In this document: piece after piece, positions 55,566 through 60,129 of the stretch
How the letters are laid out: the number at the start of each line of letters is the position of its first letter
Numbering within the stretch: the first letter of the stretch is position 1
Assembly (NCBI GenBank): GCA_011524535.1
Contig: WTKD01000003.1
Span: 1-64,000, forward strand
DNA length: 64,000 nucleotides
From: Spirochaetaceae bacterium
GTDB lineage: Bacteria; Spirochaetota; Spirochaetia; WTKD01
Direction of reading: 5' to 3'
Made by a program: the position numbers and the translations under genes
Notes under the pieces: model-generated
What the model was told of the DNA's origin: nothing
Seen by the model: the letters and a program-made list of their open reading frames with translations, nothing else
Databases searched by the model: none

Positions 55566-56044
55566 ACTGGAACCCCATTATGCGATAGAATATGGGTCAA
55601 GGCCACCGCAATAGCATCGCTGGCATGTGATGGAATATTTTTTACAGGGATTTTCAATATGATGGAAATCATCGTATTTACCTGGTGTTTACTGGCTTTC
55701 CCTATTCCCGCAACACATTTTTTCACCTCATTTGGAGAATAATTCATAATCGAAAGCCCGCCATGGATTCCAGCAAGGCGAATAACACCGATTGCTTCAG
55801 ATACCGCGAAAGCGCTCGAAACATTTATACCAAAATACAATTTTTCGAGTGCGATCGCACGCACATTGTACTCTTTGATGAGTAAGCAACATGTAGTATA
55901 TATGTGGTTTAGCCGGTGTTCGATGGGCTCAGTACTACTTGTAGAAATGACCGATTGATGGAGTATTTTTGGGCGTTGGGCGTTCATCTCTAATACGGCA
56001 ACGCCGGTAGACGCAATCCCTGGATCTATTCCCATGCACGTCAT
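55562..56044 (-). CDS. ruvC: Holliday junction resolvase RuvC
   Basis: Endonuclease that cuts Holliday junctions, 160 residues from this ATG. The acidic residues are in MGIDPGIASTGVAVLE (first Asp), ALEKLYFG (Glu) and SHASDAIAVAL (last Asp). The third catalytic position is histidine (HASD), the arrangement known from some RuvC enzymes instead of DAAD. A GTG one codon earlier overlaps the yebC stop and could also serve. Confidence 0.94.
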   Translation of the reverse strand: MTCMGIDPGIASTGVAVLEMNAQRPKILHQSVISTSSTEPIEHRLNHIYTTCCLLIKEYNVRAIALEKLYFGINVSSAFAVSEAIGVIRLAGIHGGLSIMNYSPNEVKKCVAGIGKASKHQVNTMISIILKIPVKNIPSHASDAIAVALTHILSHNGVPV

Positions 56045-56772
56045 CACTCAACGATGCATTCGGGATCCAAATTGTTGGCAACTTCTTGAACATCATCGTT
56101 GTCTTCCAACAATTCAATGATTTTTAATACTTTTGCTGCTTTTTCGCTATCAAGAGAAATAAAATTGTCTGGAAGCAATGCCTGTTCGGCGTAGAGGGGG
56201 CTAAAGGACTGTAATGCTTGGTGGACTTCATCAAAGCTGTTCGATTCTGTAATTACAGTGAATTCTTTTTGCTCGGTTTCAACATTCTCTGCACCAGCCT
56301 CAAGCGCGGCTTCAAAGAGTTCGTCTTCCGACACATTGTCAGAAGAAATGCGAATGATGCCTTTTCGCGCAAACATATACGAGACACAGCCGTTTTCGCC
56401 GAGATTCCCCCCGTGCTTGTTGAAAATACTTCTCACATCGGCAGTGGTTCGATTTTTATTATCGGTTAAGCATTGAATAAGGAGGGCCACTCCACCCGGA
56501 CCATAGCCTTCAAAGGAACATTCTTCATACTGAACGCCTTCTAATTCCCCAGTACCCTTCTTTATGGCGCGCTCGATATTATCATTGGGCATGTTTACCC
56601 CACGGGCCTTAATAATCGCGTTTCTCAATGCTGGATTTGCATCCATCGATCCGCCACCTGCACGTGCAGCAACGGAGATTTCACGAATGATTTTGGTGAA
56701 AAGTTTGCCCCTTTTAGCGTCTTGTGCACCCTTTTTGTGTTTTATGGTTGACCATTTACTATGTCCGGACAT
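56044..56772 (-). CDS. yebC: YebC/PmpR family protein
   Basis: The 242-residue member of the YebC family (also linked to relief of ribosome stalling at proline runs) opens [32 protein letters not shown], the invariant N-terminus, and has [29 protein letters not shown] near 88-115. The next gene, ruvC, is the usual neighbour. A promoter with a -10 box ending 8 bases before the ATG suggests a leaderless or near-leaderless message. Confidence 0.96.
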
Positions 56773-56897: not shown

Positions 56898-57614
56898 CTA
56901 GTATGCCTTATACATATGAATAGGCCAATACCGAAAGACGACCAGGGAACGTATTGATGAGATAGGAAGGCTGCTCCAATATCGTGAATCAAGACCCTCT
57001 TTTCGATTGTCAGATAACACGAATACATGCCCCTCGGGGACACGTATCTCATCGAATGTGCCGGTATATGGGGCATTGATACTGGATGTAGTCGAAAGAT
57101 CGGACCGAATGGAATATGCAGCATCAATCAATTCAAATTCTGATCGTGGGGAAGAGCTATCCTCAGTGAAAATGGATGCTTCAAATGTATTCATCGAAAT
57201 CCTTTCGTATTCAAATGCAATTATTCTTCGTAATGCAAGCTTGCGTATATCTGTAGGGTATATTCCAAAACTGATAGCATCGAGTAACAATTCCAAGGCA
57301 ACAGTGTTAAAAGAGCCTTCCTGTATACGAACAGCAACTATACGGCCGCGAAGATTCGTTTTGTTTTCCTTCTTCAATGCATCTCGTGCGAACCATCCGG
57401 CAAGCGGGCTCACAACGACCCTGTCTCCAGGGAGTAATTCCGGATTCATCTGCGCTGAAGAAATACCCACGGGATAGCCTAGGAATTGCACAAGAAAGAG
57501 GCGCATTGCAACGGTTAAAATATATAAATATATAACACGACGCAAAATACCCCGTGATTGACGACCCCTCCCCCTATTCGATTTATATACTTGAAATCGT
57601 GGGTATATAGCCAT
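56898..57614 (-). CDS. Signal peptidase I paralogue lacking the catalytic dyad
   Basis: The 238-residue protein aligns with LepB: one N-terminal membrane helix (about 26-46), the box GISSAQMNPELLPGDRVVV matching the family's P-x-G-S-M-x-P-x-L-x-x-G-D, and a C-terminal box VLSDNRKEGLDSRYWSSLPISSI matching GDNRxxSxDSRxxG. The nucleophile serine is glutamine (AQM, codon at 57450-57452), and the general-base lysine of KRVxGxPGD is arginine (LRRIIAFEYER). It should therefore be inactive as a peptidase. It starts 1 base after the lepB stop and is co-transcribed with it. Confidence 0.8.
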   Translation of the reverse strand: MAIYPRFQVYKSNRGRGRQSRGILRRVIYLYILTVAMRLFLVQFLGYPVGISSAQMNPELLPGDRVVVSPLAGWFARDALKKENKTNLRGRIVAVRIQEGSFNTVALELLLDAISFGIYPTDIRKLALRRIIAFEYERISMNTFEASIFTEDSSSPRSEFELIDAAYSIRSDLSTTSSINAPYTGTFDEIRVPEGHVFVLSDNRKEGLDSRYWSSLPISSIRSLVVFRYWPIHMYKAY

Positions 57615-57615
57615 C

Positions 57616-58575
57616 CTATTCTATGCTTCCGAATCTATTGAAAGGGAAAAATCTAAATAAGGGGCGCCCTATGAGCAATTCGTTGTCTACAGCGCCGAAA
57701 AAACGAGCATCACGCGAATTGTCCCTGTTGTCACCCATGGGAAAAAATTGATCTTGTCCGACATGCCATCCTTGGCTGTATAGTTTATAGCGCATTGCTT
57801 CTGATACGCTGTAGGGAGCAATTTGTAACCCGGCTTGATGCCTTATTATTCCATAGAAAAATGGGTCGATTTGCTGCGAAACTGCAAAGTCTTCTAGTCT
57901 TTGTTGTTCTTGTATATCGAGGATACCGTAGTCTGCTCTGGCAGAGAGGGCTATGTATTCTTCTAGTAGTTCTTTGTCTTCATCGGATTCGCGATAGTTG
58001 ACCGCTGTTTTGCTAAACCGCATTATTTCTCTCTCATCGAACCATGCATCAGTCCCTGCCGGTGATAGATATACCTTTCCCTGTTCGTATCTAAGCGAAT
58101 CTCCAGGCAAGCCCACGACGCGTTTTACCAATAATTCGGCTCGTATTTGCCCATCCCTATCGCGATCTATATTTACGGTTCCAAGCGAAAGAAGGTGGAG
58201 AAAACGCTGTATTATTGTGAATAGAGAGCCCTGTGGACGATAGCTGGGGTTTTGAAAAACAACTATTTCCCCCCGTTTTGGAGCACGTATAGAGGGTATT
58301 TTTGCAAAATAAGGGATTAACACTGGCCCGAAGGTTACTTTCTCGACAAATATTCTGTCATTTAATGCAAATACTGGAATCATGGAACCGGTAGGTATGA
58401 CGTATGCCTGAAGAACTAGCTGATTTATTAGAAATACAACTCCAATTGCCCAAAGAAATTCATACAGAAATAGGAGGATTTTTGATCTTCCTTTTCTTTT
58501 TTCCTCTCTCCGTTTTTTGCGGTATTTTCTATAACTAAGAAACGATTCGGTGACATGAATCATCCATTGTGTCAT
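57616..58575 (-). CDS. lepB: Signal peptidase I
   Basis: Membrane serine protease that removes signal peptides of secreted proteins, 319 residues. It has a basic N-terminus, one membrane helix (about 32-54), the nucleophile box VIPTGSMIPVFALNDRIFV (Ser near 73), the lysine box LVKRVVGLPGDSL (about 150-162), and MGDNRDNSRDARFFGAV near 277-293. An insertion of about 80 residues lies between the last two boxes. The -10 box ends 6 bases before the ATG. Confidence 0.95.
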   Translation of the reverse strand: MTQWMIHVTESFLSYRKYRKKRREEKRKGRSKILLFLYEFLWAIGVVFLINQLVLQAYVIPTGSMIPVFALNDRIFVEKVTFGPVLIPYFAKIPSIRAPKRGEIVVFQNPSYRPQGSLFTIIQRFLHLLSLGTVNIDRDRDGQIRAELLVKRVVGLPGDSLRYEQGKVYLSPAGTDAWFDEREIMRFSKTAVNYRESDEDKELLEEYIALSARADYGILDIQEQQRLEDFAVSQQIDPFFYGIIRHQAGLQIAPYSVSEAMRYKLYSQGWHVGQDQFFPMGDNRDNSRDARFFGAVDNELLIGRPLFRFFPFNRFGSIE

Positions 58576-58659: not shown

Positions 58660-60129
58660 ATGCAGCGAGAGCGGGTCGTTCTAAAGCCGATTCTATCAAT
58701 GCGACCCACTGTGTATATTCCTATCATATGGGGAGTTCTTGGTATTGCAATAATCTTCCTTGTTTTTCTTCTCCATGGTATAAGGAACCGAGGCAGCATT
58801 GTAGAGATCACTGTTAGCCCTCCAAAAGCCAGTATTTTTGTAGATAACGAGTTTTTTGGCACCGATGCAGATAAATCGTTTTTGCCTTCTGGTTCGTATA
58901 CGTTGGAAGTACAAAAAACTGGGTATGTTCCTCATATAGAAAATCTAAAGACTTCAAATCGAATATTTGGAACCCTTTTCTTCCCATCCCGTAAGCGTAT
59001 TTCAGTGGAACTACAGCTGAAAGACGAAAATATCGTTCTTGGTTCTGCAATAAATGACTTTTCCTGGAGCAGTGATATAAATGAAAACGTGGTCTTTGGA
59101 TCAAAATTACCGCTCACCGAGACCGTGTCCGAAGTTCTTATGATTGGTAACACCGATCTTGCGCTTCGCTTACTTACAAAGGCGATCCCCTTCCTACCTG
59201 GAGAGAAAAATCATTACGATTTTCTTACCGCCCTGGACAGGTTAGAGGAATACGACCCGGCGGTTTTCGCCGATGCATTATCTATCTTTGCTTCTATGCA
59301 TCCGTATCTAGCACATTCTGAGGGGCGAATCTCCGCCGAAGTTTTGCAACGTATGGAAATTGGTTTGACTACAGGATCAAACGAAGAATCGGTAAGAACT
59401 ACCCATAATTACCTTACACAGATGGCAGAAAGGCAACAGGAATCTGGCGATCCGCTTGTTATTGCTGGAATAGAATTTAGCTCATTGCGAGGTGGGTTAT
59501 CGTATATGTTTGGAGAAAACGGAATCATATACCCCCAGCCCTATGATTTACCCGATTTTTTTATCATGCAAGATGAGATAAGCATAGCGCAGTATGAGCA
59601 GTTTTTTTCCTCCCCGTTTGCTTCAGGATATCCAGAAGATATACGTGCATCGTATGCTTCGTTCGACGAACTTGATGCATCAGTCGATGAAGAGGATGCT
59701 ATGCGCTTTGTAAGTCTTGCGGGGGCGCGTGCATTCGCTGATTATATAAACGAACTTCTTTCTGAAACGACGTACGGAAATGATTGGATTGCACGCTTAC
59801 CTTATGCCCATGAATGGGAGTATGCAACCCAGATTAACAACAGTCATGGCGCAATTTCAACAAAAACAGAGGCTTTGAATAGCGAATCAATAGGATTACG
59901 CGATCTAACCGGGGGAGTCTGGGAATGGATGGAGCAGCCGTATAATCCGCTGTACGGTTTTGTGAATGATAAGGACCTTGTATCAGTAGACTTACAGGAA
60001 GTACGTGGAGGGGCAACACACAGTGAAGAAGAGACTTTCTCTCCCCAGATTCGCGGAATGCAGGAGGTCGATTGGAAAACCGAATTTTTGGGTTTTAGAC
60101 TGGTTTTGGTTCCGAAACAAGAAGAATAG
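58660..60129 (+). CDS. Membrane-anchored PEGA / FGE-sulfatase-domain protein
   Basis: The 489-residue protein has one membrane helix near residues 20-42, then a PEGA domain (VEITVSPPKASIFVDNEFFG...LPSGSYTLEVQKTGYVP, about 47-95), a helical middle part, and a C-terminal formylglycine-generating-enzyme-like (SUMF1) fold: EISIAQYEQFF, ARLPYAHEWEYATQ, GLRDLTGGVWEWMEQPYN, VRGGATHSEEE, FLGFRLVLV. The two copper-binding cysteines of true FGE are not seen, so it is probably a structural or ligand-binding variant. It is followed by smpB after 20 bases. Confidence 0.85.
   Translation: MQRERVVLKPILSMRPTVYIPIIWGVLGIAIIFLVFLLHGIRNRGSIVEITVSPPKASIFVDNEFFGTDADKSFLPSGSYTLEVQKTGYVPHIENLKTSNRIFGTLFFPSRKRISVELQLKDENIVLGSAINDFSWSSDINENVVFGSKLPLTETVSEVLMIGNTDLALRLLTKAIPFLPGEKNHYDFLTALDRLEEYDPAVFADALSIFASMHPYLAHSEGRISAEVLQRMEIGLTTGSNEESVRTTHNYLTQMAERQQESGDPLVIAGIEFSSLRGGLSYMFGENGIIYPQPYDLPDFFIMQDEISIAQYEQFFSSPFASGYPEDIRASYASFDELDASVDEEDAMRFVSLAGARAFADYINELLSETTYGNDWIARLPYAHEWEYATQINNSHGAISTKTEALNSESIGLRDLTGGVWEWMEQPYNPLYGFVNDKDLVSVDLQEVRGGATHSEEETFSPQIRGMQEVDWKTEFLGFRLVLVPKQEE

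Follow-up and report, generated by a model that had tools for sequence, protein, structure and literature searches.

A stretch of 64,000 nucleotides from a Spirochaetaceae bacterium (positions 1 to 64,000 of contig WTKD01000003.1, assembly GCA_011524535.1; hereafter the window) carries on its minus strand, at positions 56898 to 57614, a gene for a 238-aa paralogue of signal peptidase I, a member of the S26 family, that has lost both residues of the Ser-Lys catalytic dyad. The gene represents an ancient, vertically inherited single clade of the class Spirochaetia, whose members usually lie directly behind lepB, the gene for the active-type signal peptidase I. Within this clade the dyad has changed repeatedly, and dead copies have been retained under constraint. 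The gene is thus an inherited pseudo-signal-peptidase gene and no recent product of decay. Its product is probably a membrane pseudoenzyme that binds peptides or assists LepB, like SipA of Streptococcus pyogenes and SpsA of Staphylococcus aureus.

The preliminary description of this locus had proposed a signal peptidase paralogue with Gln in place of the nucleophilic Ser and Arg in place of the general-base Lys, and both replacements were read from the codons. Codon 55 (positions 57450 to 57452, minus strand) is CAG and codon 129 (57228 to 57230, minus strand) is CGA. Box B reads YVIPTGSM in LepB and GISSAQM in the paralogue, while box D reads LLVKRVV and LALRRII, respectively. LepB itself (319 aa; 57616 to 58575, minus strand), encoded by the first gene of the pair, retains Ser64 and Lys151. 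An active type I signal peptidase carries Ser in box B and Lys in box D, and the window paralogue carries neither. With both dyad members gone, it is predicted to be unable to cut. The paralogue is also intact, as had been described, with an ATG start codon and a single base (57615) between it and the lepB stop codon. The statement that the fold boxes are present is borne out by a confidently predicted S26 fold but was generously worded, as the PGD following box D has become EYE (residues 135-137), Gly214 has become Ser, and the box E Ser that coordinates the catalytic Lys is replaced by Gly207.

Despite these residue losses, the assignment of the window paralogue to the S26 fold is a confident prediction. 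It matches Pfam family PF10502 with an E-value of 6.1e-17 (62.5 bits against a cut-off of 22.9; LepB, 8e-30) and scores 62.9 bits with TIGR02227, for which the cut-off is 47. Because these matches lie above curated cut-offs, the S26 assignment is far beyond chance. An AlphaFold2 model prepared with 101 orthologues (predicted local distance difference test score, pLDDT, 87.7; predicted template modelling score, pTM, 0.82) comprises a long N-terminal helix spanning residues 16-44 and a beta-rich core. Among solved structures it comes closest to the signal peptidase of Escherichia coli (1t7d), with a Z of 14.3 and 2.4 A over 146 residues; S. pyogenes SipA (4n31) follows at Z 12.7, and S. aureus SpsB at Z 11. 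From the model, the protein would be anchored in the inner membrane by the one predicted helix, with the signal-peptidase core outside. The paralogue therefore resembles LepB (E. coli 1b12/1t7d) in profile, in fold, in the core of box E, and in a single-helix anchor like that of the neighboring LepB. It differs in its altered entry to box B and in the absence of the Ser nucleophile, the Lys base, and the Lys-coordinating Ser. LepB and the paralogue were the only two S26 proteins found in the 1.42-Mb window genome. The window gene thus combines an S26 fold, a missing dyad, and an active-type signal peptidase in the same cell, which are the features that define a pseudo-signal-peptidase.

A class-wide search covered 198 Spirochaetia genomes, among which the window genome is the sole representative of its family and order. 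Matches were obtained in 159 genomes, and the reading frames at each locus were classified with paralogue and LepB profiles. A single-protein scan of the genome contigs gave no matches, and the full alignment of 101 rows was too variable along its length to serve for such a scan. A search with an 11-row alignment returned, among the matches listed, mostly LepBs of other phyla together with five spirochaetes. The preliminary description had asked whether Gln and Arg are conserved in orthologues, and the alignment indicates that they are not. Among 103 readable paralogues, the dyad is S/K in 38, S/R in 21, A/K in 20, T/R in six, A/R, T/K, and S/S in three each, and S/L in two, and the states Q/R (the window copy), G/F, V/K, V/S, G/L, G/K, and A/G occur once each. 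LepB is S/K in all 77 cases in which both columns are readable.

A second search round added further dead states and eight Borrelia-like genomes, whose likeness to Borrelia is judged from the architecture of their 0.9-Mb chromosomes. The downstream copy is retained in all eight, its Ser position being occupied by Glu or Asp and its Lys position by Ala or Ser. In these frames (L269-L276) box E is broken, and they are presumably annotated as active signal peptidase in sequence records. The paralogue is likewise kept in 16 genomes of a treponeme-type family (f24), one of which is only 1.14 Mb (1,139,633 bp) and has an S/R copy. Separately, a third small S26 protein of ~170-200 aa was observed in many treponeme-type genomes and their relatives (L118, L122, L126, L129, L130, L135, L139, L140, and L142).

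The paralogues form one clade and the LepBs another in a 50-row tree with seven outgroup sequences, built without the window row, and each clade has a support of 98 in the Shimodaira-Hasegawa-like approximate likelihood ratio test (SH-aLRT). The window row scores 212 bits with the paralogue profile, of which it is one of the 30 building rows, and 37 bits with the LepB profile. Changes in the dyad were then counted on a quick tree of 101 paralogues, which has many open forks and for which the two dyad columns were masked. At a minimum, this tree requires 20 changes between S/K and all other states, 26 changes in the Ser column, and 12 in the Lys column. These minima, counted without a root, do not distinguish loss from regain; loss is assumed as the direction, since possession of the dyad is what characterizes the enzyme family at large. 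A single clade of all dead copies, a group defined by residue state rather than by the tree, was rejected by the approximately unbiased (AU) test (p-AU 3.3e-61). Live and dead copies occur together within seven of 28 families. Because of these mixtures the recurrence of dyad change is firm, even though the exact number of changes is soft.

Comparison of the dead copies with LepB reveals which parts of the protein have been spared. Arg130, Gly90, Glu159, Asp202, and Arg204 are kept in all 63 dead copies, Asp209 in 62, Met56 in 61, and Pro58 in 59. Among the columns that are invariant in LepB (numbered here one above the 319-aa protein), Met66, Arg153, Asp160, Glu182, Asp283, Arg285, Asp290, Gly295, and Pro312 are kept in 97-100% of paralogues. 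The corresponding values for the dyad columns are 62% (Ser) and 61% (Lys), and those for the residues that attend the Lys are 43% (the equivalent of E. coli Ser278) and 47% (Gly272). Of the 62 copies with the Lys, 38 also have Ser at the Ser278 equivalent, compared to five of the 39 copies without it, and all four residues of the catalytic apparatus are present in 23 of 101 paralogues versus 77 of 77 LepBs. The Lys and its partner Ser therefore go together, which indicates that the parts of the catalytic apparatus are lost in concert.

Dead copies also remain full length. Ratios of nonsynonymous to synonymous substitution rates (dN/dS), taken from orthologues of other spirochaetes, are mostly 0.09-0.33 for dead pairs, compared to 0.07-0.22 for intact pairs and 0.05-0.19 for LepB. 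For the Borrelia-like genomes the values are 0.2-0.55 for the paralogue and 0.09-0.24 for LepB. Full-length dead copies with ratios like those of live pairs imply selection for something other than cutting. The preliminary description had considered that orthologues with an intact dyad would signify recent decay. Such orthologues do exist, as the 38 S/K copies demonstrate, but the conclusion attached to them does not follow, since loss has been repeated, dead copies are old, and they are under purifying selection.

Genetic context ties the paralogue to LepB, but not everywhere. The two genes are adjacent on one strand in 71 of the 72 loci that hold both, with frames that overlap or nearly touch. 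Recurrent same-strand downstream genes, named from sequence, are hemW-like (82 loci) or yebC (50 loci), and the conserved neighbors of the paralogue are smpB, hemW, and yebC. In families f24 (treponeme-type), f6, f31, and f36, and in part of f26, the paralogue lies between smpB and hemW without lepB. The LepBs of these families (L223-L236) are encoded elsewhere and are 480-700 aa long. A large insert separates their box E from the region of box D, and their readable boxes keep Ser and Lys. Because the paralogue persists without an adjacent lepB, its function does not need a neighboring LepB gene as such. The earlier suggestion of a partner or regulator of LepB needs changing accordingly, in that an obligate partnership with the LepB of its own operon is weakened.

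The window locus conforms to the commoner arrangement, with the minus-strand gene order lepB, paralogue, yebC, ruvC, ruvA, ruvB (names by sequence). The yebC gene (56044 to 56772, minus strand) is next downstream and belongs to the conserved neighborhood but stands outside the proposed mechanism. Opposite lepB, a divergent plus-strand gene (58660 to 60129) appears by eye to encode a PEGA-type repeat and a formylglycine-generating-enzyme-like domain.

Precedents exist for signal peptidase homologues that do not cut. In S. pyogenes SipA, Asp and Gly occupy the dyad positions, the peptide-binding cleft is conserved, and pilus polymerization cannot proceed without the protein; mutants of its catalytic site are without effect, and no peptidase activity is detectable (PMC4049620). 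The spirochaete protein is like SipA in combining an S26 fold that lacks the Ser-Lys dyad with a membrane anchor and a conserved groove, and SipA is its second-best fold family match. However, SipA is a product of pilus clusters and acts for pili that are built by sortase (PMC4049620), whereas the spirochaete gene has lepB, yebC, and ruv genes as neighbors, and no pilus cluster with pilins and a sortase surrounds it at the window locus. S. aureus SpsA is a signal peptidase I homologue lacking both catalytic residues that is reported to be inactive and dispensable in an organism with the active SpsB (PMC12445088). In lacking the dyad while an active enzyme is present, the two systems are alike. 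In contrast to SpsA, the spirochaete family spans a class, has undergone many dyad changes, and places the dead copy downstream from lepB. In S. aureus, spsA adjoins spsB on the upstream side. A more distant likeness, in pattern alone, is provided by fungal RNase II-like pseudonucleases, a retained family described as having lost catalysis repeatedly and independently (PMC8097288); their fold and substrate are unrelated.

With SipA and SpsA as precedents, a membrane pseudoenzyme that binds peptides or a partner at the Sec exit is the favored explanation. In this mechanism, the second S26 protein of Spirochaetia would have passed from enzyme to pseudoenzyme many times, losing the ability to cut but keeping the part of the S26 core that surrounds the peptide-binding groove. 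It might retain or guide exported polypeptides, or else LepB, at the point where polypeptides leave the Sec pathway. Its action in binding or assembly would resemble that of SipA, and it would be co-expressed with a functional LepB. Binding of peptides or of LepB, and the choice of client, are suggested by analogy. The preliminary description was thus right about a dead paralogue in an operon with active lepB, and the non-cutting role it proposed is favored because dead copies are kept and constrained and the core around the cleft is retained.

Several observations weigh against this explanation. The paralogue has no known binding partner or phenotype, and it is missing or barely recognizable in families f3, f9, f10, f17, and f20, which means that its function is dispensable in places. 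LepB Pro62, numbered like the invariant columns above, precedes the nucleophile box and is kept in 0% of paralogues; the entry to the groove is therefore unlike that of LepB, and signal-peptide binding cannot be taken for granted. In the window copy the near-invariant PGD and Gly214 are gone in addition to the dyad, none of the other 101-tree paralogues has so long a branch (2.34; median 0.40), and the dN/dS values come from other spirochaetes rather than from this copy.

Some of these same observations would be expected if the paralogue were a relaxed duplicate in which lepB suffices and the unneeded second copy is lost stepwise, beginning with the dyad, with the window copy at a more advanced stage of loss in a reduced genome that evolves fast. 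Graded states are indeed seen, from intact through the loss of one or both residues to barely recognizable or absent; strongly degenerate copies behind lepB (L242, L253, and L268) may be late stages of loss. Nevertheless, we regard this explanation as unlikely. Dead copies are full length with low dN/dS values, they persist in all eight Borrelia-like and 16 f24 genomes, including the one of 1.14 Mb, and most of their substitutions are conservative, with Ala taking the place of Ser and Arg that of Lys amid invariant neighboring residues. The long branch was examined as a sign that the window gene is a decaying relic, and this was rejected because LepB of the same genome is nearly as long-branched (1.86 versus a median of 0.23, third of 77). 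The long branch is thus genome-wide, and the extra losses of the window copy may stem from rapid evolution of the whole genome and not from decay of this gene.

A somewhat better, though still doubtful, prospect is that the paralogue is the non-cutting subunit of a two-part signal peptidase, pairing with LepB to tune substrate choice or stability, as do accessory subunits of the eukaryotic signal peptidase complex. The near-constant adjacency to lepB fits this proposal, and S. aureus offers a dead SpsA alongside active SpsB, but SpsA is reported to be dispensable (PMC12445088), and the treponeme-type and other families keep the paralogue at the smpB-hemW locus while their 480-700-aa LepB is encoded elsewhere. 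A broader version is equally tentative. The mostly non-cutting S26 protein, treponeme- and Borrelia-like copies included, might be the standing subunit or client-holding export factor of a class-wide two-component signal peptidase system, in which catalysis was favored to be lost repeatedly since binding alone was needed.

It is very improbable that the paralogue remains a peptidase by using other residues or substrate assistance. In LexA, a related Ser-Lys protease, changing the Lys to Arg can leave slow activity, and Ser is kept in 25 non-S/K copies of the alignment. However, no column gains a Lys or His in most Lys-less copies (maximum 44%), and a compensating Ser, Thr, or Cys is no general feature of Ser-less copies, with no column beyond 53%. 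The window copy moreover lacks the Ser, the Lys, and the Lys-coordinating Ser, and SipA, with a similar loss, has no detectable peptidase activity (PMC4049620).

Dead signal peptidases are already known as a kind, although the previous examples were isolated Gram-positive cases. No description of a class-wide, repeatedly inactivated spirochaete family was found in the open-access papers searched, nor one of the spirochaete pair (TP0185, BB0030/BB0031). Annotation as a second active signal peptidase I should be avoided both for the treponeme-type copies, in which Arg replaces the Lys, and for the Borrelia-like copies, in which Glu or Asp replaces the Ser and Ala or Ser replaces the Lys. Spirochaetes thus offer a single inherited family in which live and dead members exist side by side, with LepB as an invariant internal control. 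Comparison of live with dead orthologues makes the role of a non-cutting signal peptidase fold testable.
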